A stretch of DNA of 45,147 nt, from contig QWPB01000120.1 in NCBI GenBank assembly GCA_003671275.1, positions 1 through 45,147 of the forward strand. Reading direction: 5' to 3'. The notes beneath the pieces were generated by a model that worked only from the letters and a program-made list of their open reading frames with translations, was not told the DNA's origin and ran no database searches. Shown here piece by piece: positions 10,849-39,715 of this stretch. Each line of letters begins with the position of its first letter. Positions within the stretch are counted from its first letter, which is position 1. The translations under genes were made by a program, and so were the position numbers. The DNA is from Planctomycetota bacterium (lineage in GTDB: Bacteria; Planctomycetota; Planctomycetia; Planctomycetales; Planctomycetaceae).

Positions 10849-10877
10849 TTGACACCTCCATCAGGCAGCAATAGCAT
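10849..10877 (+). promoter_or_regulatory. sigma-70-type promoter for ExbB/ExbD cluster 1
   Basis: TTGACA (10849-10854, perfect), a 17-nt spacer and TAGCAT (10872-10877, 4 of 6). The predicted start near 10884 leaves about 79 nt before ATG 10963 and excludes the long upstream in-frame extension to 10669, which is antisense to nadB. Confidence 0.6.
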
Positions 10878-10962: not shown

Positions 10963-11856
10963 ATGGCTGTGTCGTTTCCGACCCGATCGAGTGCGCCCAA
11001 CCTGCCACCTGGCGTCCAGCTGCCGTATTTGCGTGTCACCCGCTTTGACACATCCAGCTCGTTTTTGATGGCCACGGCGATCGCGATCATCGTGGGTGTG
11101 ATCTGGGCATTTACGCAGTTCTGGGCGACCCGTCCGCCGCGACAGCCAGACCTGGTTCCCATGGAAGTCATTCCGCTGGGCGGGGGCGTGGAAGACGGTG
11201 ACCCCGACGACACACTGGAGATTGAAAGCCCGGAAGATCCTGTTACCGAGTCCCAGGAGCAGGAGCCGATCGACGAACTGGAAGCTGTCGTCCAGATGTC
11301 GGATCAGGTCATCGAACAGTTCGAGCTGAAAGAACAGGTGGCCATCTCGGACAAGACCGGCTCCTCGCAAGGTACGGGGAAACGTCCGTTGGGTTTCGGC
11401 CCCGGCAATGCCGGTGGCGTGGCCCCTGAGCTGAGATGGTTCATCCGGTTTGCGGATGGTGCCTCGTTGACAGAGTACGCAAAACAGCTGGACTTCTTCG
11501 GGATCGAACTGGGAGCCATCCTGCCCGATGGACGATTGGCCTACCTCTCCGGGATGAGCGGAGCCCCGAAAGTTCGGTATTCAATGTCCGGCAAGGACGA
11601 GAAACGGTTGTACATGAAGTGGGAAGGGGGCGAACGGCGGAGTGCCGACGAAAAGCTCTTCCAGAAGGCGGGCCTGCAAGTGGGCAAGGCCGTGATCTTC
11701 CACTTCTATCCGAATCAGACGGAGCAATTGCTGCTCAACCTGGAGTTCAATTACGCGAAGCGGAACGTGAAGGAAATCCGTCGGACCTACTTCCTGGTGA
11801 ACACCCAGGGGAAGGGCTACGAGTTCGTCGTATCGCGGCAGTTGTACCTGAGGTGA
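10963..11856 (+). CDS. one-span protein of TolA/TonB topology, first gene of ExbB/ExbD cluster 1
   Basis: 297 residues, not assigned to a named family. It has a short cytoplasmic N-terminus, one membrane helix (about 33-54), a Pro/Asp/Glu-rich linker (about 58-125) and a folded C-terminal domain (about 145-297) ending in RQLYLR. This layout is that of TolA or TonB, which span the periplasm and are driven by ExbB/ExbD or TolQ/TolR. The helix lacks the TonB-like S-x3-H motif and the C-terminal domain shows no TonB or TolA signature that I can recognise. It sits 48 nt before exbB in a same-strand run of seven genes. ATG 10963 is chosen because the promoter lies at 10849-10877. A linker or energy-transducing role is inferred. 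Confidence 0.75.
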   Translation: MAVSFPTRSSAPNLPPGVQLPYLRVTRFDTSSSFLMATAIAIIVGVIWAFTQFWATRPPRQPDLVPMEVIPLGGGVEDGDPDDTLEIESPEDPVTESQEQEPIDELEAVVQMSDQVIEQFELKEQVAISDKTGSSQGTGKRPLGFGPGNAGGVAPELRWFIRFADGASLTEYAKQLDFFGIELGAILPDGRLAYLSGMSGAPKVRYSMSGKDEKRLYMKWEGGERRSADEKLFQKAGLQVGKAVIFHFYPNQTEQLLLNLEFNYAKRNVKEIRRTYFLVNTQGKGYEFVVSRQLYLR

Positions 11857-11904
11857 ACCCGTTGGGCGGAGGTCGCACCGCCAGCGAACTGTTGAGAGAA
11901 CGTC

Positions 11905-12573
11905 ATGTCAAATGCCAAAATTGATGCCCTGATTAACTGGCTGCTGCAGCTATCCGGGCCGGGTTGCTATCTCGCGCTGCTGGCGAGTGCCGTGTACGGG
12001 CTGTACTGCGCGATCCTGTTGTGGCGCAAGGTGCAACAGAAGCGGTTCCGCCCGGCAGCGGCCGATCAGTTCATGGAAGAGGTCAAGAAGTTCCTGGAGA
12101 ACAAGGATTTCGATGGTTTGGCAGCGCATTGCGATCAGCCCAAATACTGGTCCAAGGCCTTCGCCCAGTTGGTTCTCGTGGCCTTGTCACAACGTGATCG
12201 GGGCCTGGCCAAGTGCCGTCAGTTCACCGAAGCCAAGTTCGAAAAGGAGATCCTTTCGGAAATCGACCTGCGGTATTCCTGGGTCATTGCGATGATCAAG
12301 ACCGCTCCGATGCTGGGGTTGCTCGGAACGGTGACCGGAATGGTGCTGGCGTTCGGTAAGCTGACGAACGCCACCGGCAGTGGGGCCGATCCGCAGGCTC
12401 TCGCCGGTGACATCTCGATCGCACTCTACACGACCGCCGACGGACTGATTATCGCCATCCCGCTGACGATTATCGGGGGGATGATCCAGGTGCGTATCAC
12501 GAAACTCGTGAACGCCACCCAGGAACACTTGGAGGAGTTCTTCTTCCTCCTCCAGGCGGCCATGACGAAATAG
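11905..12573 (+). CDS. MotA/TolQ/ExbB proton channel family protein (cluster 1)
   Basis: 222 residues. ExbB/TolQ proteins form the ring of an inner-membrane proton channel around an ExbD/TolR dimer. Three membrane segments are visible: near 18-38, 128-150 (IAMIKTAPMLGLLGTVTGM, the family signature) and 170-193 (LYTTADGLIIAIPLTIIGG). The large cytoplasmic loop lies between spans 1 and 2. GAGAGAA (11894-11900) precedes the ATG. The two genes after the next 47-nt gap code for its ExbD partners. It cannot be told from sequence whether it works like ExbB, TolQ or AglR-type channels. Confidence 0.9.
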   Translation: MSNAKIDALINWLLQLSGPGCYLALLASAVYGLYCAILLWRKVQQKRFRPAAADQFMEEVKKFLENKDFDGLAAHCDQPKYWSKAFAQLVLVALSQRDRGLAKCRQFTEAKFEKEILSEIDLRYSWVIAMIKTAPMLGLLGTVTGMVLAFGKLTNATGSGADPQALAGDISIALYTTADGLIIAIPLTIIGGMIQVRITKLVNATQEHLEEFFFLLQAAMTK

Positions 12574-12620
12574 GCTGCCCGGATTCACTTCGCCCCACCC
12601 CCAGTCGCAGGTGACCGACC

Positions 12621-13070
12621 GTGAAAACACGGGAAATCCCCAAAGACAACGAAATGGACATCACGCCGATGATCGACGTGACGTTCCTGCTGCTGATCTT
12701 CTTCATTCTGACCAACAACATGTCCAAGAATGCGAAGGTCGAACTCCCGGCGACGCGCATGAGTTCCAGCGTCAACACAAAAACATCGGTCACCCTGTCG
12801 ATCTTCAGGACCGATGGAAGTGACGGGGAGGTCTATCTGTCAGAAGGGACCATGGAAAATGGCCCCGCGTCGATGGCCGAAGTGACGCAGTATGTCCGGC
12901 AGGCGATCCAGGATGATCGCAAAACGGTGATTCTGATGTGCGATCAGGGGGTCTCTTCCGGATTCGTGGAAGAGGTCGCTCTGGCAGCCTCCGAAGCCTC
13001 CGAAGAAGAGCTGCTGTACTTCACCGGTGTTCTGGAAAACGCCAAGAGTCGCAAGAGCAAGAAGCCGTAG
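12621..13070 (+). CDS. ExbD/TolR family protein (cluster 1, first copy)
   Basis: 149 residues with a GTG start; AGGTGA lies about 6 nt before it. The short cytoplasmic N-terminus leads into the family signature MDITPMIDVTFLLLIFF, with the channel aspartate at Asp19. One membrane span (about 16-36) is followed by a periplasmic domain of about 110 residues with a C-terminal Lys/Ser-rich tail. It pairs with the ExbB 47 nt upstream. The conserved Asp should take part in proton flow that drives the complex. Confidence 0.9.
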   Translation: MKTREIPKDNEMDITPMIDVTFLLLIFFILTNNMSKNAKVELPATRMSSSVNTKTSVTLSIFRTDGSDGEVYLSEGTMENGPASMAEVTQYVRQAIQDDRKTVILMCDQGVSSGFVEEVALAASEASEEELLYFTGVLENAKSRKSKKP

Positions 13071-13109
13071 TGACGATCGCAAAGGGAGTTCCTTTCAGGA
13101 AGTGGTGGC

Positions 13110-13766
13110 ATGCCGATTCAGTTTCGATGCAAACATTGTGGCCGGGTGCTGAGCATCTCGTCCCGCAAAGCGGGAGCGACGGTGAATTGCCCCGCCTGCA
13201 CCGAGCCGATTCTGGTTCCCGGCGAGGTTCCGGAAACAGCCATCGTCGACAAGGTGGCCCCGACGCAGGCCCCGCTGGATCCCGCCCCGCGATCCCCGAA
13301 CACCGCTTCGCTCTGGGAAGACTCGGAAGCTCCTCCCGAGCCAAAGCCCAAGCGCAAGGCGCCGGAAGATGGCCTCGACATGACCCCCATGGTCGACGTG
13401 ACCTTTCAACTGCTGATCTTCTTCATGATCACGGCATCATTCGCCGTACAGAAGGCGCTGCAAACCACCGCTCCGGAACCGAATGAAGATCCCTCTCAGC
13501 AGGTCGTGCAGGTCGAACAGATTCAGGAGGAGTCGGTGGTGGTCTCGATCGACGCCAACGACGCGATGCTGGTGGACGACGAACCGATCGAGGGGATCTA
13601 CGCCCTGGTCGAAGTGCTCCAGGGCAAGATGGGTTCCGAGCAGAAGAACAACCTGCTGATCGAGGCCGATTACAAGGCGAGTCATGGAGCGGTGGTGGCT
13701 GTGATTGATGCCGGGATTACCGCCGGGATGCAGGGAATTCGCAAGAAACAAGCCGGAGAGGAGTGA
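13110..13766 (+). CDS. zinc-ribbon-ExbD/TolR fusion (cluster 1, second copy)
   Basis: 218 residues. Residues 1-33 form a cytoplasmic zinc ribbon with Cys7-x2-Cys10 and Cys27-x2-Cys30. A Pro-rich linker (about 40-85) joins it to a standard ExbD: LDMTPMVDVTFQLLIFF with the channel aspartate at Asp96, one span (about 93-113), then a periplasmic domain to 218. The ribbon is on the cytoplasmic side, where ExbD normally has only about 20 residues. It could bind metal, nucleic acid or a protein partner and gate the channel. The stop overlaps the GTG of the next gene by 4 nt, which points to coupled translation. Confidence 0.88.
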   Translation: MPIQFRCKHCGRVLSISSRKAGATVNCPACTEPILVPGEVPETAIVDKVAPTQAPLDPAPRSPNTASLWEDSEAPPEPKPKRKAPEDGLDMTPMVDVTFQLLIFFMITASFAVQKALQTTAPEPNEDPSQQVVQVEQIQEESVVVSIDANDAMLVDDEPIEGIYALVEVLQGKMGSEQKNNLLIEADYKASHGAVVAVIDAGITAGMQGIRKKQAGEE

Positions 13767-16700
13767 CGCCACCGTCCCTTCGGGGACTGGCCGGCAACCA
13801 CAAACTTCCGCTTTCCATGGGACGACACCAGAGTATGGCCCTTCTCGAAATCATCCACCTGACCGGTGGTATCGAACGGCGTGACCTCTACAAACGCCAA
13901 CCGATGTCGATTGGCAGCCACCCCTCCAACGATCTGCGGATCGATGAAGAGGGCGTCGAGGTCATGCATGCCCGCGTCTCTTGGAACAAAGACTCCTGGG
14001 AAGTCGTGGCGGCGGGTACCGCTTCCATCGAACTGAACGGGACCGAGGTCCATAAGGCCCGGCTGAGGTCGGGAGACACGATGCGATTCGGGGCCATCGA
14101 TGTCCGCTTCATGGACCCCGATGCCCCAGTTCCCCAGGAAGAACCAATCGGACTGAAGGCTGACTCGGAGGAAATCAAGGTCGCCCAGAAGGTCTCGAAA
14201 TCGGTGCCTGTGAAGTCCCCTCCCGTCAAGAAGTCAGACGCGGAATTGGCGAAAAGCCTGGAACTGCTGGCTCACGAGGCTCCGGCAACGGGGAAGAAGG
14301 CCAGCAAACACGATGAGCCACTTGAAGTCGTCGACGACGAGGAGCGGCCCCCCGCCCGATCTTCCAAAACACCCCCCAAAGCCGCGCGCGCCACCGCCGA
14401 CGACGAAGTATTCGAGGAAACCCCTGAAGACGACAGCCACGCTAGTCCGGCCCGCCCGGGAATTCTTGACAAAGTGAAGGACGCCATCGGCTCGAAACCT
14501 CAGCGCCCCGGCGACATGGACCCGGTCAAATCACCGCTGGTCCTGGGCCTGCTGGGGGGAAGCATCCTGCTGGTGCTGATCGGACTCACTTTCTACTTCA
14601 TCGCCGATCGACGAACGACCATCCAGATCTATGATGAAGCTGTCGGACTCGTTGACAGTCAAAAATACAACGTCGGCATCAAGGCGTTGGAAGAATTTGT
14701 GGAGTACTTCCCCGAACACGAGAAGACCCCCGAGGCCCTTGCCAAGATTGGGCTGGCGAAAGTCGACCAGGCCGCCACCGCCAACTCCAATTACCCGGAG
14801 GGACTCAAGCTGTTGCGGGAGTTCGTAGGCCAGCAGCGGGACATCCCGGGCTTTGACGCTCTGAAGGACCAGGTGGCAACCCGGGCCGGTGACATTTCCC
14901 TCGCAGCTGCGACACTGGCAGGCAAGCAGACGAATCCCGGTCTATTTGCCACGGTGGATTCCGCCCGCACGATGCTCGTGACCTACAGCTCCGAGTCCGT
15001 CCCTCCCACTCAAAAATTACGAGAGATCGACGATGCCCGGCGGGCTGCGGAACGGGCGATCAACAAGACCAAGGATTTCCGCACCAAGACGGAAGCGATC
15101 AAGCAGGCGATTGCTGGAAAGCAGCCGATGATCGCCCTCGCAATTCGGCGTGACCTGCTCTCCAACTATCCGGACTTCATGACGCATAAAGAAGTCCGGG
15201 ATCTGATGGTACAGACGCTCGAACTCGAGCGTTCACTCGTCACTTCCGAGGAGCCGGCGACTGCGGCCCAGACGGCGGATTCTGAGATTTTACCGGCTCC
15301 TAAGGTACTGGCATTCAATGCCCGGTCGCGTACGGATCAGGTGTCCGAGAATCAGGTGGTCTGGTCACTGGCCAAAGATTGTCTCTACGGGGTCGACACA
15401 GTCACCGGCCTGCCGGTATGGCGACGGGCCGTGGGAGCCGACCTGCCTTTCTTTCCGCTGGAGGAAAGTTCTCTGCCCAGCCTCATCGTCTACGATTCCG
15501 AAAGAGATGAACTGTTGCGGTTGAATCGACAGACCGGGGGCCTGGTCTGGCGGCAAACCATCGGCGTACGCGTACAAGGCCAGCCCCTGCTCGACGGAGG
15601 CCAGATCTACCTGACCACCGAGGATCACTCACTGCTGAAGATCGACATGCAGTCGGGTACCATTATCAGCCAGGTAAAGTTCTCCCAGCCAGTCATTGGC
15701 CCGGCCGTTTCCGGTGACGAACATCTGGTCGTGATCGGGGATCAGGATGTCAGTTATCTGCTCTCACGCCGACCGCTGGCCTGTGTGGGTGTCAGCTATC
15801 TGGGACAGAAAGCTCAGTCGGTCCAGGCCCCTCTGGTTTCCATGGGGCCGTATGTTTTGTTTGTGGAGAACCAGTCCGAACAGGCAGCGACGCTGCGACT
15901 GCTGAAACAAGACTCAGCGACCACTGTGGGTGAAGTGGCCCAGGCTCCTGTCGTGGGAATGGTCGTGGATGAGCCGGTCATTCGGGGTCGCGACTTGTTC
16001 GTCCCCTCGTCCGTCGAACGGGTCAGTGCCTTTTCGGTCTCGGACACCACCGGGGAAAAGCCACTGACCGTGGGGCCCACTTTCCAGGTACAGGGAGCCC
16101 AGGGCAGCCCGATCTTTCTGACACCGGGCCCCGAGGGTCAGGTCTGGATGGCGAGCAGCGCCCTCCGCCGCCTGCAACTGGTCGCGGATGTCATTCAATC
16201 CGACTCGAATGTGGCTGCGGTCGGGCTCTCCTCCCAGCCGATCCAGTCGCAAGGAGAATACCTGTTCAACGCCCGCCGTCGGCCATTCACCGATGCGGTC
16301 ACCCTGACGCAGACCCTCCGGGAAAAACTGACCAGTGACTGGCAAGTCATTACGGGAGCCCAACTGCTGGCAACCGCAACCTTTGAAGGTGAAACCCCTT
16401 CCCTGATTGCCGTCAATGAGGCGGGGGCCACTTTCCGTCTGACGCCCGCTCAACTGAGTGAATCGGGGTTCCAAACCGAGGCAGCCACGCGGCTGCCGGT
16501 GGATGATGCCACCAAGGACCGGCTATATGGGGGAGCCCTGGCCGATTCGCAGATTGCGGTGGCCTGCAGTGAGCCCCAGGCTCGAATGTGGGTGATCAAT
16601 CGACTGGGACTGGTCGACCGCCAGGCCCCCCTGCCCGCCAACCCACAAGGCCGCCCCATCCCCCTCGGCAAGAAGATCGTAGTCCCGTTGGTCGGACGGC

Positions 16701-17371
16701 TGCATGTGGCTCGCACGGGGGCGGGGGATACTCCGGTACAGGACTTCCAGTTCCCCGCCGGAGACCAGGTTCCAACCTGGAAGCAGCTGCTGCCGGTGGA
16801 TACCACCAACCTGATCGCCCTGACCGTTGATGGAACGCTGCTGCAGATCCGACAGCAGCAAAACCCCAGCCCGCATTTGGCGGAAGTGACCCGCATCACC
16901 CTGCCCGGCCCCACGATCGGCGAAGTGGCCATGTTTCAGGGACGCTTCGTTGTCGCCTGCGGAACGGGTGATGTTCAGCTGTTCGACGCCACCAAACTCG
17001 AACCGATCGGGCGGAGGGTGATGACGCCGGCACCGAGCGGGCCCGCCTATGTCACAGAAGCGGGTGTGCTGATCGAAACCGGTAGCGACACGCTGCATTG
17101 CCTGAACCCCGACGAGGGGCTGACGACCAAGTGGAAGCGTCCGACGGAGGGCGGTACGCTGTCAGGCCCGCCATTGATGTGGAATGGCCAGCTGATCCTG
17201 ACCTTCCGCGATGGGCAAATCCTGACCGTTGACCCCCAGACCGGCGAACCGGCTTCTGAGCAGTGGGCCTCCGGACGGCTCGACTCCGGTCCGTTCCTAT
17301 TCTCACAACAACTGTTTGTGCGAACCTGGGATGGAGGGCTGCAACGAATCACCGGCCCTGCGGCTCCGTAG
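13763..17371 (+). CDS. FHA-TM-helical repeat-beta-propeller envelope protein
   Basis: 1,202 residues. A cytoplasmic FHA-like domain (about 28-117) is followed by an acidic, Pro-rich linker and a membrane helix (about 256-280). The extracytoplasmic part has a helical TPR-like region (about 283-490) and a PQQ/quinoprotein-type beta-propeller (about 515-1200) with repeated 'D-x-x-T-G-x-x-x-W' blades such as VDTVTGLPVWRR and LNRQTGGLVWRQ. FHA domains bind phosphothreonine, but here the usual GR is Gly51-Ser52 and the usual S-x-x-H is V-x-x-H (His69), so binding may be altered or lost. The GTG start is coupled to the previous stop (GTGA overlap) with GGAGAGGA just before; ATG 13817 or 13835 are alternatives. 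The propeller could play a TolB- or BamB-like role. That is inference. Confidence 0.82.
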   Translation: MTPPSLRGLAGNHKLPLSMGRHQSMALLEIIHLTGGIERRDLYKRQPMSIGSHPSNDLRIDEEGVEVMHARVSWNKDSWEVVAAGTASIELNGTEVHKARLRSGDTMRFGAIDVRFMDPDAPVPQEEPIGLKADSEEIKVAQKVSKSVPVKSPPVKKSDAELAKSLELLAHEAPATGKKASKHDEPLEVVDDEERPPARSSKTPPKAARATADDEVFEETPEDDSHASPARPGILDKVKDAIGSKPQRPGDMDPVKSPLVLGLLGGSILLVLIGLTFYFIADRRTTIQIYDEAVGLVDSQKYNVGIKALEEFVEYFPEHEKTPEALAKIGLAKVDQAATANSNYPEGLKLLREFVGQQRDIPGFDALKDQVATRAGDISLAAATLAGKQTNPGLFATVDSARTMLVTYSSESVPPTQKLREIDDARRAAERAINKTKDFRTKTEAIKQAIAGKQPMIALAIRRDLLSNYPDFMTHKEVRDLMVQTLELERSLVTSEEPATAAQTADSEILPAPKVLAFNARSRTDQVSENQVVWSLAKDCLYGVDTVTGLPVWRRAVGADLPFFPLEESSLPSLIVYDSERDELLRLNRQTGGLVWRQTIGVRVQGQPLLDGGQIYLTTEDHSLLKIDMQSGTIISQVKFSQPVIGPAVSGDEHLVVIGDQDVSYLLSRRPLACVGVSYLGQKAQSVQAPLVSMGPYVLFVENQSEQAATLRLLKQDSATTVGEVAQAPVVGMVVDEPVIRGRDLFVPSSVERVSAFSVSDTTGEKPLTVGPTFQVQGAQGSPIFLTPGPEGQVWMASSALRRLQLVADVIQSDSNVAAVGLSSQPIQSQGEYLFNARRRPFTDAVTLTQTLREKLTSDWQVITGAQLLATATFEGETPSLIAVNEAGATFRLTPAQLSESGFQTEAATRLPVDDATKDRLYGGALADSQIAVACSEPQARMWVINRLGLVDRQAPLPANPQGRPIPLGKKIVVPLVGRLHVARTGAGDTPVQDFQFPAGDQVPTWKQLLPVDTTNLIALTVDGTLLQIRQQQNPSPHLAEVTRITLPGPTIGEVAMFQGRFVVACGTGDVQLFDATKLEPIGRRVMTPAPSGPAYVTEAGVLIETGSDTLHCLNPDEGLTTKWKRPTEGGTLSGPPLMWNGQLILTFRDGQILTVDPQTGEPASEQWASGRLDSGPFLFSQQLFVRTWDGGLQRITGPAAP

Positions 17372-17424
17372 TCCCAGCCAAGATGCGGTAGACCAAGTCG
17401 GCACGGTTGTGAGGAGAAAGCGCC

Positions 17425-19884
17425 ATGGGGCGATGGGCGCGACAATTTGTACTGGGTGTGGCCGTAGCGCTACTCGTTTTGAGTCGCACCACGGGCCGGG
17501 CCACGGGCCAGGAGGCCCCTCCGGCGGAATCCACCCCGGCAGCAGCTCCTGCGGCGGAGCCGAAGCCCACGATCAGTGAGGACCAGCTGCCAATGATCGG
17601 GGACATGGCCGTGCCCGACGCGAAGGCATTGCTGACCGGTCCGCTGCGTGACTGGGTAGTTCTTATCACCGACAAGGTTCTGGTCGTTGAATCGATCGTC
17701 CCCCGGCCCGACACACTGGCGAAACGTGTTCTTGAAATCGAAGCCAAGCAGAAATCCAAACAAGGCCTGACGGGCGATGACCTGGAAAAGGTCAAACAGG
17801 AGTACGACGATCTCCAGTACCTGTACTTCACCGTTCCTGAACAATCCGCCGCCCCCGAAGTCCGCATTCCCCTCAAGAACATTCGGCAGATCATTCACCA
17901 TGAAGATCTGATGCTGAAGCGAATGCAGCTACTCGTCGAAGAGGGGAACATCGATCTGGCCCTGGAGTTCCTGAATTGGATGCTCGACAAGGTTCCCACG
18001 TGGCCCGGGTTAAGCGAACAGACCAATGCGCTGCTGATGGCCGATGCCAAGCTGCGCATCGCGGCCGGACGCCTGGAGGACGCGCTGGTTCCTCTCCAAG
18101 AGATTCACTCCCGACAGAGTGACTACGTGGGAGTGACTGAAGCCGTTGGCAATGTCCTTCAAACGATGTCACTGGCTGCGGCGGAGCAGGAAGACTATCC
18201 CCAGGCCCACCACCATCTGGAACGGCTGCGAGCGCTCTACCCAAACCATCCGCAAGTGACTTCGATTTCCAGCGGACTGGAACAGCGAGCTGCGGAAATG
18301 CTGACTCGGGCAGAAGAAGCCTACAAGGCCGAACGCTATGACGAAGCTCCCGGATACGCGGAACAGGCGGCCGTAATCTGGCCCAAACTGAAGAATCTTA
18401 AAGAGCGTCACAAACCGATCGTCGAGCGATTTCAGCGACTGCATGTGGGAGTGGTCCGCCTGACCGGAGAGCCGACGGCATTCCCGGTGCCAATCGACGC
18501 TGAACTGCGAGAAGAGCGACTGCATCGCACGCCGCTGTTCTCGCTGGACCGGATGGTGAATGGCACCGCTCAGTACCGCACCCGATACTTCAGTGAATGG
18601 GAACCGTACGATCTGGGACGGCGAATTCGCTTTGAACTTCGTTCCTCCCGCCAGCCCTGGGAGTCCCAACCCCAATTGGAGGCTCCGCAAGTGGTGGCCC
18701 TGCTCCAGGCCAAGATCGATCCCGCGAGCGATCAGTTTGATGATCGACTGGCCGATTCCATCCGGACTATTGAACTGAAGTCCCCGCGAGAATTTGTGGT
18801 CTCCTTCCAGCGCGTTCCGGCCCGGATCGAGGCCCTGTTCGCGTCGATCTACCCGGCAGCTCCGACCGATCCGATGACCGAGGGAACCGGCTTCCGGCTG
18901 GCCCTCCATGAAGCGGATCAGGTCATCTTCCGACGAGCCCGCCCCGAACCTCCCAAGCTGCCCCAATATCATGTTGCCGAGGTCGTGGAACACAAGTATC
19001 AGAACTACGACCGGGCGGTGCAGGCTCTGCTGCGGGGAGAAGTGTCGCTGATCCCGAACTTGCCCGACTGGTACATACGCCGGTTGCAAGCGGACGACGA
19101 TGCGAAGAAAGAGTTCGACATTCTCAAATACAGCCTGCCTCACACGCACGTCATCCTGTTCCACCCCGACAGCCCGGCGGGGAAAAGCCGTGACTTGCGG
19201 CGGGCTCTGGCCTATGCGATTGACCGCGACACCCTGCTCAAAGACACCGTTTTACGTGATCCCACGTCCGCCCATGGCCGCCTGATCGAGTCCCCCTTCC
19301 CCAGCTTCAGCTATGGCAACAGTCTTCAGGCCCGCAAGGTACAGTTCGATCTGTCGGCGGCGATTGCCATGGCGGTGGCTGGCGGTCAGCAGCTGGGGGG
19401 CACCGCCCTGCCAACACTGCGAATGGTGGTTCCGCCTTCCCAAGTAGAACGGGCGGCGGCGGAGGAGCTGGTCCGGTCCTGGAAGCGAATCGGCATCACC
19501 GTGGAGATCGTTCCCGATGATGCCGGACCGCAAACCAAGTACGACCTGCTCTACCAGTCCGGAACATTTCCGGAGCCCGTCGTGGACTGGTGGCCGCTGG
19601 TCACCCAGAGCAGCCGCCCGAATCTCAGCGACCTGTTCACAAAGCCGGACTGGCTGCGGCAGCAGATGGTCGACCTGGACCGAACTGCGGACTGGACACT
19701 GGCGACCAGGCAGTGCCAGGAACTGCATCGGCGACTGTCCGTCGAGGCGGCCTACCTGCCATTGTTCGAAGTCGATGGCTATCTGGTGATTCGCAAAAAT
19801 ACCCGGGGTGTTCCCCAGGAGCCACTGCACGCGTATGACCAGCTCGACCGCTGGTATCTCGAGGCCATGCTTCCCACTCCCTAG
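17425..19884 (+). CDS. extracellular solute-binding protein family 5 with N-terminal helical-repeat region
   Basis: 819 residues. A signal peptide (about 1-28) is followed by an Ala/Pro-rich stretch, a TPR-like helical region (about 150-310) and a family 5 solute-binding fold (about 320-815). The fold is shown by FSEWEPYDLGRRIRFELR and the family hallmark DLRRALAYAIDRDTLL near 590-605. Family 5 proteins (OppA/DppA type) bind peptides or other ligands for ABC import and are normally 500-550 residues. The extra 300 N-terminal residues and the absence of any Opp permease nearby suggest a binding or structural role within the ExbB/ExbD cluster. GAGGAGAAA at 17411-17419 gives a strong start. Confidence 0.82.
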   Translation: MGRWARQFVLGVAVALLVLSRTTGRATGQEAPPAESTPAAAPAAEPKPTISEDQLPMIGDMAVPDAKALLTGPLRDWVVLITDKVLVVESIVPRPDTLAKRVLEIEAKQKSKQGLTGDDLEKVKQEYDDLQYLYFTVPEQSAAPEVRIPLKNIRQIIHHEDLMLKRMQLLVEEGNIDLALEFLNWMLDKVPTWPGLSEQTNALLMADAKLRIAAGRLEDALVPLQEIHSRQSDYVGVTEAVGNVLQTMSLAAAEQEDYPQAHHHLERLRALYPNHPQVTSISSGLEQRAAEMLTRAEEAYKAERYDEAPGYAEQAAVIWPKLKNLKERHKPIVERFQRLHVGVVRLTGEPTAFPVPIDAELREERLHRTPLFSLDRMVNGTAQYRTRYFSEWEPYDLGRRIRFELRSSRQPWESQPQLEAPQVVALLQAKIDPASDQFDDRLADSIRTIELKSPREFVVSFQRVPARIEALFASIYPAAPTDPMTEGTGFRLALHEADQVIFRRARPEPPKLPQYHVAEVVEHKYQNYDRAVQALLRGEVSLIPNLPDWYIRRLQADDDAKKEFDILKYSLPHTHVILFHPDSPAGKSRDLRRALAYAIDRDTLLKDTVLRDPTSAHGRLIESPFPSFSYGNSLQARKVQFDLSAAIAMAVAGGQQLGGTALPTLRMVVPPSQVERAAAEELVRSWKRIGITVEIVPDDAGPQTKYDLLYQSGTFPEPVVDWWPLVTQSSRPNLSDLFTKPDWLRQQMVDLDRTADWTLATRQCQELHRRLSVEAAYLPLFEVDGYLVIRKNTRGVPQEPLHAYDQLDRWYLEAMLPTP

Positions 19885-19944
19885 TGCCACACTCACGACT
19901 GCCACTCATCCGGTGGTTCCCGCATCCGGGTGACCGAAAGATCC

Positions 19945-21558
19945 ATGAACACTTCACCCCGGTATCCACTGGCATCATTCCGCAGCCTGGCGGTGTTTCT
20001 GGTATTGGTTTTCATTCTGGGAGCCAGCCCGATCCTGGCCCAGAAGGCCGCACCGGCCACAGCCCCGACGGCGGCCCAGCCGATTACGGCCCCAGTCACA
20101 ACGCCCCCGGTCACAACGGCCCCAGTCACCCCCTCGGCGTCATCCGTTTCGACAGGCCCTGCTCCGCTTAAAATCACCAAGCCCAATCTCTCCAAACCGG
20201 CGGTAATCCCCTACGACCAGCAGCCCTACCGGATCTCGATTACGCTGGGAATTGATCCCGCACTAGGAATGCCCCCCCGGGAATCCGACCGGCTGGTGGC
20301 CCAGCTGCGAGATCAATTACTGGCTCGCGTGGGAGCCGCATGGAATGCTCAGGTCACGCTGGCGGAGCCCCGCGATCCGACATCCCATGATACTCTGGCC
20401 CTGCGTTCGGCGACGGACTGGACAGCAGCCATCGGAGCTTCCCCGATTGATAAGAAACTGGCACTGACGTTGGATCGCGTGGGAACCAAGTATCGGCTCG
20501 CCGGAATCGAGTGGGACCGTACGACGGAGCAAATCACGCCGGTCATGACGCGGGAGGCGTTCGACCGTCGCCGCCTGAGTGTCTTGGCCACGGACCTTTC
20601 GCTGGCCCTGTTCCGTCCGCTGGTCTCCGTGACCGCAGTGACTGAGAACGCTGTGGAATTAAGGATTCGCGGCGGTGACTTTCTGCCTGCGGATGCGACA
20701 GCCACCCCGTTTCAGGTGGGCGACCATCTGACCACGTATATCCGGCACTACGACAAGAAACATGAACTGCGACGAATTCAGGAGATCCCCTGGAGCTACC
20801 TGCAGGTCGATCTGGTCGATCGGGGCTTCATTCGAGCCACCCAAATCACCCCTTTCAAATCTCCCCTGGCTGCCAGCAAGCGTCGAGCGGAGTCCTTCGC
20901 CATGAAGGTCAATCCCTATTTTCCTTCGAGTACCGTGACAATTATTCCTCGCGGGAAGCCCGATGCCCCGCTGGCAGGTTACCGAATCGAGTTGCTGAAT
21001 CGCGACGAAAGCAAAACCGACCCGGTAGCCGACCGCCTCAAGATTCGAACCAACCGGGCCGGACAGGTCGTCCTGCCGGTAGACGCCGCCCACCGGCTCC
21101 AGACGTTGATCGTCTACAGCGGAGCGTCACCTCTGGCTCGGGTCCCGATCATCCCCGGGCACGCTCCAACGCTGCAGCTGAATGTTCCAGATGACACCCC
21201 CCGCATGAACGTGGAGGCGGAAACCGAACTGCTCCAAAGCGAACTGGTGGACACCGTGGCTCGGAGGCATGTGATGATGGCTCGGGCTCGGGCTGCTGCT
21301 CAAAAAGGCAACTTCGAACAGGTTACCGAATTCCAAAAGCAGATCAGCGAACTCCCCACCCTGGAGCAGTTTCAAAAGCGAATCGAGAACTTGCGTCTAC
21401 CGGGAGTCCAGGCCGCCCGCAACAAGAAGGACAAGACGCAGGAAACTCGGATTACCAAGCTCTGCGATAAAATCAACAAGCAAGCAATGGAACATCTGGC
21501 TCCAACCACCTTGGTGGAGTTCGAGGCCGAGATGAGTGAGCTGAAAAAGGCGAATTAG
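19945..21558 (+). CDS. secreted protein of unknown function, end of cluster 1
   Basis: 537 residues from ATG 19945 (a GTG at 19930 would add 5). A signal peptide (about 1-36, ending near ILAQ) is followed by a Pro/Thr/Ala-rich tract (about 38-75), a mixed beta-rich middle (about 90-430) and a charged helical C-terminus (about 425-537) that may be a coiled coil. No family was recognised. It is the last gene of the same-strand run, 60 nt after the solute-binding gene, so an extracytoplasmic role with that cluster is likely. The next gene (sthA) follows after 74 nt and may or may not share the transcript. Confidence 0.7.
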
Positions 21559-21632: not shown

Positions 21633-23069
21633 GTGGTGGAGTCGCGCCCTGTTCCTCTGGAGGCAAGCCCCGTGGCAGCCGACTTTGAGTTTGATGTCGT
21701 GGTCATCGGATCTGGCCCCGGCGGCGAAGGCGCCGCCATGCAGGCGGTCAAGCATGGCCTGCGGGTGGGCCTGGTCGAACGCATGCCCCAGATTGGGGGG
21801 AGCTGCACTCATACCGGGACGATTCCGAGCAAGGCACTGCGGTTTGCAATCTTCCAGGCCATGGAGTTCCGCTCGAACCCATTATTTCGTTCACTGGGTA
21901 CAGCCACCGATATCACGCTCCCCCTGCTTCGCCGCTCCGCCCAGAAGGTGATTGACCAGCAGGTCAAGATGCGGCAGAGTTTTTACGACCGCAATGATGT
22001 GTCGATCTTCGGGGGTGCGGCCCGCTTTCTCGATGTCAATTCGGTCGAATTGCAACTGCCGGATGGGGGCCGGACCGTCTTGTCGGCGAAGAATTTTGTG
22101 ATCGCCACGGGAGCCCGCCCCTACCGTCCGGAGAGCGTCGACTTTTCACACCCCAGCATCTTCGACAGCGATACGATCCTGTCACTCAATCACGACATCA
22201 AGTCGATCACTGTCTACGGGGCTGGGGTGGTCGGTTGCGAATATGCATCGATGTTTCGCAACATGGAGGTGAAGGTCAATCTCGTGAATACGCGAGATAA
22301 ACTGCTCGATTATCTGGATGAGGAGATCATCGACGCCCTGAGCTACCATTTGCGGGAACGCGGCATCCTGATTCGCAACCGCGAAGAGTACCAGCAGATT
22401 GAATGCTGTTCCGATGGGGTCATCCTGCACCTGAAGTCGGGTAAGAAACTCAAGACCGATGCCCTGCTGTGGGCGGCCGGACGGACGGGTAACACTGAGG
22501 ACATGGGCCTGGAGAATGTGGGCATCCAGCCTGACCAACGCAGCAACCTGACCGTGAATGCCCAGTATCAGACAGCGGCGCCGAATATCTATGCGGTCGG
22601 GGACGTGATCGGCTTCCCGGCACTGGCCAGTGCCGCGTACATGCAGGGGCGGGCTGCGGCCAGCCACATTCTCGGCGAAGGGGATTTGAATCAGATCTGC
22701 GACATACCAACCGGTATCTATACCAGTCCGGAGATCAGCTCACTTGGCAAGACCGAGAAGGAATTGACTGAGTCCAAGACTCCCTACGAAGTGGGGCATG
22801 CGCATTTCAAGAGCCTGGCCCGCGCCCAGATCACGGGTCAGACCGCCGGAATGCTGAAGCTGCTGTTTCATCGCGAGACGCTGGAACTGCTGGGCATTCA
22901 CTGCTTCGGCGCAAACGCGAGTGAGATTATCCACATCGGCCAGGCCATCCTGATGCAGCCCCGACCGTACAACACGCTCAAATACTTCGTCACGACAACG
23001 TTCAACTACCCAACGATGGCCGAGGCGTACCGCGTCGCGGCCCTCAACGGGCTCAATCGGTTGTTCTGA
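21633..23069 (+). CDS. sthA: soluble pyridine nucleotide transhydrogenase
   Basis: 478 residues. It is an FAD enzyme that exchanges hydride between NADPH and NAD+ in the cytoplasm. The FAD site [10 protein letters not shown] is at 26-35 and the NAD(P) site [12 protein letters not shown] near 190-205. In the active-site segment [13 protein letters not shown] the first redox cysteine position is Cys58 but the second is Thr63, which separates SthA from lipoamide dehydrogenase and glutathione reductase. The C-terminal [19 protein letters not shown] is nearly identical to that of E. coli SthA as I recall it. It starts at GTG 21633 with GGAG 8 nt upstream. Confidence in the function is high. Confidence 0.95.
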
Positions 23070-30755: not shown

Positions 30756-30953
30756 GTTATCAAGCTTCATTGAATTGACAATCCCGGCAGATGGTTCGTT
30801 TTTCGAGCGGAGTCCACTTAGGAGAGCGGGCAATCAGCGACGATGGGTGTCTCTTTGGATTTGTTGCAATCCGTCGAACATCGCGTTAGTTTGGGCGGTG
30901 ATATCCCGTCGCTTTCGAAGTTTGTGGCCTTCCTGGCTAAACCCGTGGGACTG

Positions 30954-31799
30954 ATGATGACACAGCGCTGGTTCTTGTGGTCGTGCTTGGCAATTCTGGG
31001 TTTGGCGGTGGCCTGTGACTGGGGCTCCCAGACAGTAATGGCTCAGGAAGCTGCTCCCGCAGCCCCAGCGGCAGCTGCCCCGGCACCCGCTGCCGCTGCC
31101 GCCCCCGCGACGGAAGGGCACGCCAAGGAAAGTCAATTGATGTGGATCATCAAGACCTCCGGTCCCATTGGAGGTTTTCTGCTGATTCTGTCGATCTACT
31201 TCATTGCCACCTGCGGGCGGCTGTTCACGGAACTAAAAAAAGACAAGGTGTCGCCGCCGTCAGTCGTCGAGCAGTGCAACAGCAGCCTGGAAAAGCGAGA
31301 CCTGAAGGGGATGTACGCTTCCGCCAAGGGTAATGAGTCGGAGTATGCCCGCCTCGTTCGGACTGGCATCGCGGAGTTGCCGGCGGGACTGCCGGAAGCT
31401 CGCTCGGCCATGGAGCGAACCTTCGAAGTGATTCATTCCGAGGGCGAACGTAAGATCTCGATGCTGGCTGTGCTGGGAACCCTGGGGCCGATGATTGGAC
31501 TGTTGGGAACCCTGAAAGGGATGATTGGTGCGTTCGGTGAAATCGCCCAGAGCGATGGCACCGTCCTGAAGGCCAGCGCCGTGGCGGGAGAAATTTCGGA
31601 AGCCCTGCTGCTGACTTTCGAAGGTGTGTTGCTGTCGGTGCCCGCCATCTTCCTGCATGCTGTTTTCCGCAACAAAATCACCAAGCTGAATGACGAAGCC
31701 TTTACCGAGGCGGAAGAACTCGTTTCCAAGGTGGCCAGCATGGCCAAACGCCCCTCCGGTGGTTCCACCGCAAACCCACCGTCCACTCCGTCGGCGTAA
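30954..31799 (+). CDS. MotA/TolQ/ExbB proton channel family protein (cluster 2)
   Basis: 281 residues from ATG 30954; the frame is open to 30843, but those residues do not look like protein start sequence. A signal-peptide-like segment (about 5-30) and an Ala/Pro tract (31-53) precede the usual three ExbB spans: near 70-88, 175-200 (LAVLGTLGPMIGLLGTLKGM signature) and 220-245 (LLTFEGVLLSVPAIFLHAV). The added N-terminal periplasmic extension is seen in some ExbB branches. It is followed 52 nt later by two ExbD genes, so the set makes one proton channel unit. The start choice is uncertain. Confidence 0.88.
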   Translation: MMTQRWFLWSCLAILGLAVACDWGSQTVMAQEAAPAAPAAAAPAPAAAAAPATEGHAKESQLMWIIKTSGPIGGFLLILSIYFIATCGRLFTELKKDKVSPPSVVEQCNSSLEKRDLKGMYASAKGNESEYARLVRTGIAELPAGLPEARSAMERTFEVIHSEGERKISMLAVLGTLGPMIGLLGTLKGMIGAFGEIAQSDGTVLKASAVAGEISEALLLTFEGVLLSVPAIFLHAVFRNKITKLNDEAFTEAEELVSKVASMAKRPSGGSTANPPSTPSA

Positions 31800-31851
31800 T
31801 CACGTCTCTTCCGTGCTCCTGCTCTGTCCCTGCACTTTTTGAGGCATCGTC

Positions 31852-32301
31852 ATGTCTGGATCGTCGTCGGAAGGGGGTGAACCGGATCTCACCCCGATCC
31901 TCGACATGGTGTTCCAGCTCATCACCTTCTTCATGCTGGTGATGAACTTCAAGGCGGCAGCGCTGGACCTGACTCTGAAGTTGCCCGTGATCGGATCGGC
32001 GATGCCCGTCGACACTCAGGGGCAAGAAGAGTTGCTCGTACTGAATTTGTCGACTACGGGTGACCTGACCGTGTATGGCAACAAGGTGGAGCTGGACGGT
32101 TACATCGCTGCCGAAGCCGAAGTCAGCCGACTGGCCGCAAAACGCAAGGGCGAGGAAATCGAGCCAGGCGGCGAACTGCCCACTACGATTGTCATCCGAT
32201 CGGATGAAGCCTCGGCCTTCAAAGACTTGTACCGTGTCATCAAGGCTTGCCAAGATCGCGGTTTTCGCAAATTCGCCCTCAAAGCCACGCGGCCGGAGTA
32301 G
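31852..32301 (+). CDS. ExbD/TolR family protein (cluster 2, first copy)
   Basis: 149 residues. The family signature PDLTPILDMVFQLITFF carries the channel aspartate at Asp18 in the single span (about 15-35). The periplasmic domain follows and ends with a short helix (YRVIKACQDRGFRKFALK). GAGG lies 7 nt before the ATG. It pairs with the ExbB upstream and with the second ExbD 3 nt downstream. Confidence 0.9.
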   Translation: MSGSSSEGGEPDLTPILDMVFQLITFFMLVMNFKAAALDLTLKLPVIGSAMPVDTQGQEELLVLNLSTTGDLTVYGNKVELDGYIAAEAEVSRLAAKRKGEEIEPGGELPTTIVIRSDEASAFKDLYRVIKACQDRGFRKFALKATRPE

Positions 32302-32304
32302 AGC

Positions 32305-32832
32305 ATGTCCCGCCGACGCGGAAAGTCCAGCGAAGTCAAGCTGAATCTGGCGGCCATGCTCGACATGGCATTCCAGCTCCTGGCGTTCTTCGTGTTGACC
32401 TTTAAGCCAGACCCTGCCGAAGGTCAGATCCTGCTGCGATTGCCGCCGCCGGAAGCCGTGGCGATGGTAAAAACCAATCAGCAGGCGGGCCAAGACGCGA
32501 ACAACACCAATCCTGTGGAAGGGATCGAATCTCTTATTATCACGATCGACTCGCGGAACGGTTCGATCGACACACTGAAACTCGGGGACGGCATGATCGG
32601 CGGCGCGGGCAGCCAGGAAAAACTCGGAGCCCTGTCGGCCCGACTGGGCGTGATCCTGGAACCCAAAGACTCCACCTTCAAGCAGGTGATCCTGCAGGTG
32701 GGCTCGAAATTGCGTTATGATGAACTCATGCGGGTCATTGATGTCTGCACTCGACAGACCTTGCCGACCGGCGAGAAGCTGACCAAGTTGAGTTTTGTCG
32801 AATTGCCCGATGGAGCGGCGGGAGCCCCCTAA
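32305..32832 (+). CDS. ExbD/TolR family protein (cluster 2, second copy)
   Basis: 175 residues. A basic N-terminus (MSRRRGK) leads to LNLAAMLDMAFQLLAFFVL with the channel aspartate at Asp20. The usual Thr-Pro of ExbD is replaced by Ala-Ala, so this copy is more diverged than the other three in the window. The periplasmic part includes a Gln/Asn-rich insertion near 55-70. It starts 3 nt after the previous gene, with GGAG 7 nt before the ATG. The two ExbDs may form a heterodimer in the channel. Confidence 0.88.
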   Translation: MSRRRGKSSEVKLNLAAMLDMAFQLLAFFVLTFKPDPAEGQILLRLPPPEAVAMVKTNQQAGQDANNTNPVEGIESLIITIDSRNGSIDTLKLGDGMIGGAGSQEKLGALSARLGVILEPKDSTFKQVILQVGSKLRYDELMRVIDVCTRQTLPTGEKLTKLSFVELPDGAAGAP

Positions 32833-32833
32833 C

Positions 32834-33763
32834 ATGCCACCCTCCGGCAGTGGATCAACGGGATTCTTTTCGTCGCGTGAGATGATGCGACTGATCTCAG
32901 GGATTTTCCTGATCGGGATCGTGGGTCTGTTGTATGTCCAGGCCCGACAGAGTTCGACATGGAGATCCATTGCCTCGGAATCCCAGGAGGAGGCCGAAGC
33001 GACCATGGTCGATCCCGCGACCTGGACAGAATGGGTTGTCCCTCACCCGGGACACACTGATCCAGAAGAGATCGACGCAATTAAAGAGGAATTTCAGGCC
33101 GTCGAAGACAAGGCCCCCCTCAAGGGAGAGGAGATGCCCTCCCAGTGGCGGCTTGCCAAATGGGCGCATGCGATCCCTGCGACAGACCTCCGAAAGCTGG
33201 CTCGTAAGGACATTCTCTTCACCCACCTGCAACAGGCCCCGGGGAAGCACCGGGGAAGCCTGATTGAGCTGAATTTGAATATTCGACGCGTGCTTTCGCA
33301 CGATGCCCCCAAGAATTCCGCCAACGTAAAAAAAGTCTACGAGGCTTGGGGAGTCACTGAGGAATCGAGTGTCTTCCCTTACTGTGCCGTGTTCTTTGAC
33401 CTGCCTCCCGGTGTCCCCGTTCAGGCGAATGTGGATTTCCGCATGCGGTTCGTGGGCTTCTTCTTCAAACACCTCCCCTACGATGACGGACTGGGGGTCA
33501 AGCGGTCTTCGCCCATGCTCGTGGGACGACTTATTTACGATCCCCTCGCCCCCCCGGCCTTATCCCGCGAGGATCGCGGTCTGAGCGTTCCGTGGATTGT
33601 GGGCATTGTCCTCCTGCTAACCACGTTGGTATTGCTCACCCAGTGGTGGGGCAAGACATCTGGCAAGCTGCGACAGCGCCCCGCAACGCATGACGAAGCC
33701 ACCATCGACTCATTTCTGGATGACATCGAGGCAACCGAAAGTTCCAGCCAAAACCCGCCCTGA
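32834..33763 (+). CDS. two-span envelope protein of unknown function (cluster 2)
   Basis: 309 residues. A first membrane segment (about 17-36) is followed by an extracytoplasmic region of about 210 residues, a second span (about 252-273) and a short acidic cytoplasmic tail. No family was recognised. ATG 32834 lies one base after the exbD stop, with GGAG 9 nt upstream. An in-frame start at 32795 would overlap exbD by 38 nt and is less likely. Position inside the ExbB/ExbD cluster makes a structural or coupling role plausible. Confidence 0.75.
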   Translation: MPPSGSGSTGFFSSREMMRLISGIFLIGIVGLLYVQARQSSTWRSIASESQEEAEATMVDPATWTEWVVPHPGHTDPEEIDAIKEEFQAVEDKAPLKGEEMPSQWRLAKWAHAIPATDLRKLARKDILFTHLQQAPGKHRGSLIELNLNIRRVLSHDAPKNSANVKKVYEAWGVTEESSVFPYCAVFFDLPPGVPVQANVDFRMRFVGFFFKHLPYDDGLGVKRSSPMLVGRLIYDPLAPPALSREDRGLSVPWIVGIVLLLTTLVLLTQWWGKTSGKLRQRPATHDEATIDSFLDDIEATESSSQNPP

Positions 33764-33859
33764 CGGTCACGACCCGATTGACGGGACAGTTCCCTTCGGG
33801 GAAAATTCACGGATCATTTCTGCGGGTCTTCGCAGCCCCATTCTACTGGGATCTCGTTC

Positions 33860-35524
33860 ATGTCGACGGCACCTGCTCAATCACCTTTTCAAAAGATGCT
33901 GACCGATTTTACGGTCGAAGCCAAGGCATGGGTCAAGGAACAAGCCAAATGGTGGGGGATGGCGATCCTGATCCATGGGCTCGCTCTGTTACTGATCGGC
34001 CTGCTGGCGGGTACCGTCGCCATCGTCTCGAACAACGGGGAAGTCCCGCTGTTCGACGCGGTCATTGATACGGTGATCCCCGATTCCGATCTGACCCAGT
34101 TCGATGTGACGAACGCCCCGATCGAAGTCTCGGAACTCTCCGCCGAAAGCCTGATGCTGACCGAGGCACCGGCCATCGCTCAGGACGCCCAGTTCAACGA
34201 CGACTCAGCTACCTTCTCCGAAGCGGGCGGCGGGATCGCCTCGACAGCGACTAATAGTGAATTCGGGGGGCTGGGTGGTTTTACCGTGAGTGCGACCGGT
34301 CCCGGGGCGTTGGTGACCGGTGGCGGCGGAATCGGAACCGGTGTGGGGACCAGCAACAAAGCGGGCAGTGGCGGTTCGGGAGCTGGCTTTGGAGGTCGTG
34401 GAACCGGTTCACGCCAGGCGATGGTCGGCTCGTCCGGCGGTACCAAGGCCAGCGAACGATCGGTGGGGGGTGGTCTGAACTGGATCGCCCGGCACCAGAA
34501 TCCGGACGGTTCCTGGAGCTTTGACGGTTATAACCGGCACTGTAAGGACGCCAGCTGCTCCTGCCAGGGAGAAAAGAAGACGAATGCCGGTGCAACCGCG
34601 TTCGCCCTGTTGCCTTTCCTCGCTGCCGGCCAGACCCACAAGTCACGGGGCATCTACCAAAAGACTGTGGCCAGCGGGCTGGATTACTTCAGCAAGATTG
34701 GTAAGCCGGATGGCAGCCTGCACGGGGGACAAGGTGACCCGATGTATGTGCAGGGGGTGGCGACGATCGTGCTATGCGAGGCATACGGGATGACGAACGA
34801 CCAGCGACTGCGAATCCCCGCACAACGGGCGGTGGACTACATTTGCAAAGCGCAGCATCCTCAACTGGGTGGCTGGCATTACTACACCCCGGGCAGCACC
34901 CCCACGGCAGGAGACCTGTCGGTGGTGGGCTGGCAGTTGATGGCTCTGAAGAGTGCGATGATGTCGGGCTTGGAAGTGCCTCCGGCTGTCCTGGAAAACT
35001 CAAAGAAGTTCCTGACTTCCGTGTCCAAGGGAAAATCCGGTGGACTGGGTTCGTACATGGTGGCCTCCGCCCCCACCCCCACGATGACCTCGGTGGGCCT
35101 GCTGAGCAAGCAGTTCCTCGGTGTGAAGCGATCCGACCCGGCGATGGCAGAAGGGATGGCCTACATGATGGGCAACCTGCCGGGCAAGACGGCCCGCAAC
35201 TCGTACTACTTCTACTACGCAACACAGGTGATGCATAACCTGCCGGGGCCGGAGTGGGACGAATGGAACCGGGCGACCCGGCGTCACCTGATCGAGACGC
35301 AGGAGAAGGAAGGCTGTGCAGCGGGCAGCTGGAATCCTGAACTGCCGACCAAGGATGCCCACGCGGACGCCGGGGGGCGGTTGTTCGTAACATCGGTGAA
35401 CACATTGAGTCTTGAGGTGTATTACCGATTCCTGCCGCTGTATAAGCTCGACAAGACGGGCGAGGCCATGGATTCCGAGAAGCCGAACTTCGGTTCCGAG
35501 ATGAAGCCTGACGCCAAGAAGTAA
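33860..35524 (+). CDS. membrane-anchored terpenoid-cyclase-like (prenyltransferase/squalene oxidase repeat) protein
   Basis: 554 residues. One membrane helix (about 32-56, containing His39) is followed by an acidic stretch and a Gly/Ser-rich linker (about 123-198). An alpha/alpha toroid domain (about 203-540) follows, with QW-like turns NPDGSWSF, KPDGSLHG and HPQLGGWHYY. The catalytic DxDD motif of squalene-hopene cyclases is not present, so terpene cyclisation is unlikely. Cys228, Cys233 and Cys235 form a compact cluster in the first repeat. The plan (anchor, flexible linker, folded domain) is that of TonB-like proteins, and the gene lies 96 nt after the ExbB/ExbD set. A protein-binding role driven by that complex is inferred. 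Confidence 0.85.
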   Translation: MSTAPAQSPFQKMLTDFTVEAKAWVKEQAKWWGMAILIHGLALLLIGLLAGTVAIVSNNGEVPLFDAVIDTVIPDSDLTQFDVTNAPIEVSELSAESLMLTEAPAIAQDAQFNDDSATFSEAGGGIASTATNSEFGGLGGFTVSATGPGALVTGGGGIGTGVGTSNKAGSGGSGAGFGGRGTGSRQAMVGSSGGTKASERSVGGGLNWIARHQNPDGSWSFDGYNRHCKDASCSCQGEKKTNAGATAFALLPFLAAGQTHKSRGIYQKTVASGLDYFSKIGKPDGSLHGGQGDPMYVQGVATIVLCEAYGMTNDQRLRIPAQRAVDYICKAQHPQLGGWHYYTPGSTPTAGDLSVVGWQLMALKSAMMSGLEVPPAVLENSKKFLTSVSKGKSGGLGSYMVASAPTPTMTSVGLLSKQFLGVKRSDPAMAEGMAYMMGNLPGKTARNSYYFYYATQVMHNLPGPEWDEWNRATRRHLIETQEKEGCAAGSWNPELPTKDAHADAGGRLFVTSVNTLSLEVYYRFLPLYKLDKTGEAMDSEKPNFGSEMKPDAKK

Positions 35525-35573
35525 CCCACTCGCCCTCACCGATGGCCCCTGCTTGCCCGTGAAGGACCATTTG

Positions 35574-38462: not shown

Positions 38463-38519
38463 CACTGCGGGCCAATGCCGGGGACGGTTTCAGGCAAGCG
38501 ACAGAAATGAAAGTACCCT

Positions 38520-38590
38520 GTAGAACGGCCTTTTCAGGCCGTTTGAGATCGATAATTCCCGACTGAGACGACCTGGAAAGGCCGTCTTAC
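38520..38590. repeat. REP-like pair of inverted repeats in opposite orientation
   Basis: The left element (38520-38547) has AACGGCCT-4nt-AGGCCGTT (38524-38543). The right element (38566-38590) has AGACGACCT and AGGCCGTCT with one mismatch. The right element reversed reads GTAAGACGGCCTTTCCAGG, matching GTAGAACGGCCTTTTCAGG of the left one in 16 of 19 positions. Two copies facing each other between convergent genes are the layout of a BIME/REP doublet. Confidence 0.65.
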
Positions 38591-38734
38591 GGGGAGACGC
38601 CGCTTGCTGTGAACTGAACTCCGGACAAGGCACCCCTCCGGGACCGCAGGTGGAACGCGACATCCAGCCGCCTGTCCCAGCGTGAGCCACCAGTGTCAGT
38701 CACGCGGGTGGGAACGTCATTCCCTGGCGGGCGT

Positions 38735-39667: not shown

Positions 39668-39715
39668 GGGAGGATTCCCGATGGGGACGGAGCATCCACA
39701 AGCGAGGGGGACCAC

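Follow-up and report, generated by a model that had tools for sequence, protein, structure and literature searches.

The 45,147-nucleotide contig QWPB01000120.1 (assembly GCA_003671275.1; a Planctomycetota bacterium of the Planctomycetaceae), referred to below as the window, carries seven genes at 10963-21558 that in all likelihood specify a single trans-envelope machine driven by the proton-motive force (PMF). All seven open reading frames (ORFs) lie on the plus strand, where the initial annotation placed them, and are packed with gaps of 48, 47, 39, −4, 53 and 45 bp; in order they encode a linker protein (LINK), an ExbB, two unlike ExbDs (ExbDa and ExbDz), an FHA-propeller protein (FHAP), a binding-protein-like product (SBP) and a secreted protein (SEC). 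The operon is an old, vertically kept system found throughout the class Planctomycetia, not a local cluster. The initial annotation had ventured that it might be a lineage-specific energised envelope machine; that view gains from a conserved gene order, from a LINK confined to the class and from the absence of TolB in 59 genomes.

Conservation of the operon

Gene order was read in stretches of at most 20 kb around orthologues of FHAP, which is matched in 59 of 59 relatives searched and is present as a long orthologue in about 50. The order LINK-ExbB-ExbDa-ExbDz-FHAP-SBP-SEC is complete at 24 loci from whole genomes and at 30 named ones, two sets that overlap in part, some of the named contigs being from the same genomes; most loci lacking it end at contig ends or come from lineages in which the locus is split. 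The full order is found in Planctomycetaceae, in Pirellulaceae (Blastopirellula marina) and in Thermoguttaceae; among the hosts with names are Thalassoglobus, Gimesia, Schlesneria, Planctomicrobium, Fuerstiella, Thermogutta and Blastopirellula marina DSM 3645. The genes are thus kept together in related genomes, across families and orders alike. Broad profiles find LINK in 216 of 248 genomes of the class (194 of 222 when the good ones alone are counted); for SEC the figure is 212 of 248. Each is usually in single copy; 205 genomes have both, 11 have LINK only, 7 SEC only and 25 neither, counts that are not independent because the genomes are related. In a sample of the phylum (392 genomes), the C-terminal domain of LINK gave 40 matches, every one of them within the class.

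One might suppose that unrelated envelope genes have simply drifted together, as planctomycete genomes hold many ExbB/ExbD genes (9 ExbB-family matches in this one). Conservation of both order and orthology across orders contradicts such an accident, the likelihood of which is negligible; the two downstream neighbours tested, sthA and purC, are not kept beside the operon in relatives. The first of these, which encodes a soluble NAD(P) transhydrogenase (SthA; NF003585, 700 bits), lies at 21633-23069 on the same strand, 74 bp past SEC.

Upstream, a promoter-like site (TTGACA-N17-TAGCAT, plus strand, 10849-10877) precedes the genes that the initial annotation credited with one good promoter. The site matches the consensus at 10 of 12 positions and stands about 85 bp 5′ of LINK; the scan as a whole returned 5 sites against 2.1 ± 1.4 in shuffled sequence, slightly above chance, so that the site is only suggestive.

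Motor, linker and partner proteins

The three motor genes belong to their families at the superfamily level: ExbB (11905-12573), an ExbB/TolQ-type channel subunit, matches PF01618 (MotA_ExbB) with 75.7 bits, and the two ExbD/TolR proteins, ExbDa (12621-13070) and ExbDz (13110-13766), match PF02472 with 63.8 and 79.8 bits. They are not TolQ or TolR equivalogs, with 48.8 bits against a cut-off of 221 for TIGR02796, and 47.7 and 42.8 bits against 127.3 for TIGR02801. Among 35 orthologues the channel threonines of ExbB (LLGTV; TTAxGL) show little or no variation; the transmembrane (TM) aspartate is kept in 35 of 35 ExbDa sequences (here in TPMIDVTF) and in 32 of 32 ExbDz sequences (TPMVDVTF). Set against the known motors, ExbB5-ExbD2 and TolQ5-TolR2, this conservation points to a working proton channel, and the presence of two unlike ExbDs suggests a heterodimeric axle. 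ExbDz carries a cytoplasmic zinc ribbon, CxxC...CxxC, as first annotated: its four cysteines are invariant in a 19-sequence alignment, and it is present in 32 of 35 operons. In some genera (loci L057, L064, L065, L129 and L143-L145) the second ExbD ORF is about 500 residues or longer; the zinc-ribbon signature was not found in that of L057, L064 or L065.

LINK (10963-11856) has one TM span by hydropathy. Its AlphaFold2 model, built from 61 sequences, has a short N-tail, a TM helix at 27-55, about 95 residues of disorder (a Pro/Glu/Gly linker) with one weak helix, and a confidently modelled C-terminal alpha/beta domain at 155-297. As modelled, this is the topology of TonB and TolA (TM, disorder, globular end), and LINK is proposed to be the force transducer. 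It has no significant Pfam or NCBIfam family, and no Pfam match, vWA included, at E ≤ 1. The C-terminal domain shows no similarity to planctomycete TonB C-termini when sequence profiles are aligned (hhalign probability 0.1-0.2%); the idea of LINK as a plain TonB/TolA homologue is rejected on that negative.

FHAP (13763-17371; a later ATG near 13835 may be the true start) conforms to the FHA-TM-helical-propeller plan described at the outset: Pfam finds the cytoplasmic FHA domain (36.4 bits) and the repeats of a PQQ/BamB-like propeller (PQQ_2, 65.9 bits), hydropathy gives one TM span, and a helical, TPR-like region lies between them on the periplasmic side. In most sequences the Arg of the FHA Gly-Arg motif is a Ser, and SxxH has for the most part lost its Ser; the His and the Asn-Gly are kept. 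With the phosphothreonine pocket so depleted, phosphothreonine reading is disfavoured, and the domain more likely serves as a scaffold, as FHA domains of the YscD type do.

It is here that the strongest rival to a Tol-Pal-like role arises. The core of the Agl-Glt system of Myxococcus comprises aglR, aglQ, aglS, gltC, gltD, gltE and gltG, the last with an FHA domain (PMC3169522). By analogy, the motor would move complexes of FHAP and LINK along the envelope, carrying surface polymers or adhesins or propelling the cell over surfaces, instead of stabilising the outer membrane. AglR-AglQ-AglS has the same motor make-up, the Agl-Glt core includes TPR proteins beside the FHA-TM protein GltG (PMC3169522), and GltG is an NCBIfam match over the FHA region of FHAP (NF033760, 4.1e-6). 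However, that match covers the FHA domain and linker only and scores 25.6 bits against a cut-off of 650; GltG is FHA-TM-TonB, terminating in a TonB-type domain, whereas the periplasmic part of FHAP is helical and ends in the propeller; and near-universal single-copy presence in the class suits housekeeping better than motility. Transport of this kind is unlikely, though still the leading competitor. At L093:9882-14720, a 1613-residue TPR-like ORF with weak similarity to FHAP is oriented divergently from a further ExbB/ExbD cluster that its genome carries.

SBP (17425-19884) begins with an apparent signal sequence, which is followed by a weak TPR region and the SBP_5 fold. Its description as a family 5 solute-binding protein with extra repeats stands for the binding fold (SBP_bac_5, 72.3 bits) and is less secure for the repeats (TPR_14, 19.1 bits, below the cut-off). 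The SBP_5 domain invites another account, in which LINK takes the place of TonB in driving an importer of the outer membrane while SBP binds the imported peptide or sugar. LINK has the topology of TonB, and TonB_C is absent from most relatives: there is none in the genome at hand, and 14 of 59 genomes overall have it. Yet the conserved gene set holds no receptor gene and no permease or ATPase gene of an ABC transporter to serve SBP; SBP has a TPR region fused to it and sits in a structural operon; and some genomes, G008, G026, G040 and G049 among them, have LINK as well as a true TonB. An uptake role is accordingly rather improbable.

SEC (19945-21558; the ORF opens at 19930) was at first put down simply as a secreted protein. 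A signal peptide is indeed present, also by hydropathy, but the protein is not featureless. Sequence searches return no significant Pfam or NCBIfam family, no FlgT model at E ≤ 1 and no FlgT match among PDB sequences. Its AlphaFold2 model (predicted local distance difference test score 87.7) shows an alpha/beta domain at 95-241, a beta domain to 322, an Ig/CnaB-like domain at about 325-415 and a helical bundle at 418-536. The top Foldseek match is FlgT of Vibrio (3w1e, E 2.8e-9), followed by TolB (7mx5, E 2.4e-7); a second aligner gives Z 9.1 over 200 residues for a chain of the LPHT ring (8z5n) and Z 7.9 over 203 for 3w1e, both at a root-mean-square deviation of 8-9 Å, and gives the TolB N-domain Z 8.1 over 110 residues at 3.1 Å. 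The large deviation implies that the two FlgT-like domains are probably arranged differently in SEC. Residues 94-322 are thus predicted to have a FlgT (M+C)/TolB-N-like fold. CsgG, LpoB and similar periplasmic proteins have it too; what the fold indicates is therefore a class of structure, not a function.

A flagellar part would be the literal interpretation of the FlgT match, SEC being an H-ring protein and ExbBD the stator. This genome, which is 99% complete, and seven sampled genomes of one family of relatives (f2, below) retain LINK and SEC, and flagellar rod proteins (PF00460) were found in none of the eight. SEC is for that reason taken not to be a flagellar part, and the proposal, rejected on these grounds, is very improbable.

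The proposed machine and its lineage variants

As we infer its assembly, direction of force and function, the machine would run as follows. Five ExbB subunits would make up the channel and ExbDa and ExbDz would occupy its pore, as in other 5:2 motors; LINK would sit beside the motor through its one TM helix and cross the periplasm with its flexible linker, so that the C-terminal domain could pull on, or move against, a periplasmic partner. An inner-membrane anchor would hold FHAP, whose helical arm and propeller would be presented to the periplasm; SEC (TolB-N/FlgT-like, Ig and helices) and SBP (TPR and binding-protein fold) would make up an outer part facing the peptidoglycan or outer membrane. 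The most likely job would be envelope housekeeping, for instance keeping hold of the outer membrane or drawing it in as the cell grows and buds, as a stand-in for Tol-Pal.

That the work is envelope housekeeping of the Tol-Pal kind is a tentative proposal, somewhat short of an even chance, and one PMF-driven machine and this role, taken jointly, are put no higher. Housekeeping is the best guess because the system is near universal, usually in single copy, without partners for nutrient uptake, and found where TolB is absent. As to a canonical Tol-Pal set elsewhere, which would have counted against the initial annotation, TolB_N was detected neither in this genome nor in 58 relatives (0/59), and the E. 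coli, Caulobacter and Bacteroides controls matched. Pal, said from the start to be missing from the cluster, is indeed not there: 56 of 59 relatives have OmpA-domain matches, and the only one of this genome is a lone lipoprotein encoded elsewhere (L184, contig C1, 8344-9270), with the lipobox LSSTGC and a coiled coil.

Several points weigh against the machine as drawn. The operon contains no Pal, nor any other known outer-membrane component. Some members of the class are without LINK or SEC, and the system is therefore not indispensable everywhere. The LINK C-terminal domain has no significant PDB match by Foldseek or sequence search; as the Foldseek query was the whole model (E ≤ 0.001; in a second look, matches to the TM helix and loose matches prevailed) and not the domain alone, the search is compatible with a known fold and with a new one. 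Finally, TolA and TonB bind their motor through the histidine of an SHLS motif; the operon LINKs have no such histidine (S-x3-H) in the TM helix, and a conserved YDxVSS motif stands in its place.

Planctomycetia are known to divide without FtsZ and, as far as tested, have no TolB. For holding and constricting their outer membrane, this PMF-driven operon, which is conserved in the class, restricted to it and equipped with its own linker, offers a concrete candidate. The boldest form of the proposal is a class-wide, proton-driven replacement for Tol-Pal, whose transducer, with a previously undescribed end domain, would draw the outer membrane in during FtsZ-independent budding; this is doubtful, well below the housekeeping role as such.

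Two families depart from the standard layout. In family f2, probably Isosphaeraceae (the named locus L155 shares its arrangement), LINK-FHAP-SBP-SEC stay together, and ExbB-ExbDa-ExbDz form a separate three-gene locus. In the ExbB tree, which has long branches and many open forks, the split-off ExbBs of f2 group with operon ExbBs of family f4 (98/96), apart from the paralogues in the genome of the window (99/100). Family f3, which we suspect to be Gemmataceae, has a divergent LINK standing alone, and a weak relative of SEC is present. In most sampled f3 LINKs the TM helix carries S/T-x3-H (SLLVH, SILIH, TVFLH), with the spacing of true planctomycete TonBs (SAVVH, SGLLH); it is possible that these standalone LINKs (L190-L198) form an evolutionary bridge from LINK to motor binding of the TonB type.

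Smaller rearrangements also occur: ExbB-ExbD-ExbD is inverted and divergent from LINK-FHAP-SBP-SEC in L055 and L142, and L132, L139, L165 and L171 have a tandem LINK pair with one divergent copy. The window itself contains a second motor cluster at 30843-40510, with an ExbB (30843-31799) that falls in the paralogue clade of the tree, two ExbDs (31852-32301 and 32305-32832), a protein of unknown type (32795-33763), a squalene-hopene-cyclase-like protein, a 969-residue TPR protein and another unknown protein of 605 residues. This second cluster could be of the vWA/TPR kind seen in the Planctomycetes-Verrucomicrobia-Chlamydiae (PVC) group.

Known systems compared

In the literature searched, no paper was found that describes the operon, and LINK, FHAP, SBP and SEC were not found; the main text of the essential-gene study of Planctopirus limnophila (PMC10632474) does not name Tol, ExbB, ExbD or TonB. 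That ExbB/ExbD may drive further transducers is, as a general idea, in print, since a 2025 survey presents PVC clusters in which TolR-like genes come in pairs and the transducers are vWA proteins (PMC12204202). If the present proposal is true, the ExbB/ExbD motor would be coupled to yet another kind of transducer, beside TolA/TonB, the vWA proteins and GltG.

The initial annotation likened the parts to those of Tol-Pal by type and denied any kinship by sequence. The types are alike: an ExbB/ExbD channel, a one-span linker with a flexible middle and a globular end, a propeller (in FHAP), a weak TPR (in SBP) and a compact operon. The denial needs qualifying, as structure prediction gives SEC a fold of the TolB-N/FlgT type. 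Tol-Pal unites the TolB-N domain and the propeller in one periplasmic protein, TolB, whereas here they are split over SEC and FHAP; the LINK domain has no detectable relation to TonB, and both the SHLS histidine and Pal are missing; and this operon has two unlike ExbDs together with extra FHA, zinc-ribbon, SBP_5 and Ig domains.

Tol-Pal is in any case not the only model, as a motor with an FHA core resembles Agl-Glt of Myxococcus equally well (PMC3169522). Shared with that system are one TolQ-like and two TolR-like proteins (here adjacent, as ExbB, ExbDa and ExbDz), an FHA-TM protein and TPR proteins, though the TPR matches of SBP are weak. The present operon differs in having no TonB-type domain, in having a propeller, SBP_5 and TolB-N/FlgT-like proteins instead, and in being confined to, and nearly universal in, one class.

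The PVC force-transducer clusters (PMC12204202, Fig. 4a) are likewise found in Planctomycetes. Their transducer ends in vWA and has SHLS; LINK ends otherwise, the operon LINKs lack that motif, and FHAP, SBP and SEC are not described among the parts of those clusters.

FlgT of Vibrio, an H-ring protein, helps stator assembly at the outer membrane (PMC7990780). SEC 94-322 matches two FlgT domains by predicted fold; it differs in showing no detected sequence similarity, in adding Ig and helical domains and in occurring without flagellar rod genes. By the defining features tested, then, the operon does not belong to Tol-Pal, Ton, Agl-Glt or the FlgT family; in its action it may well resemble Tol-Pal or Agl-Glt.

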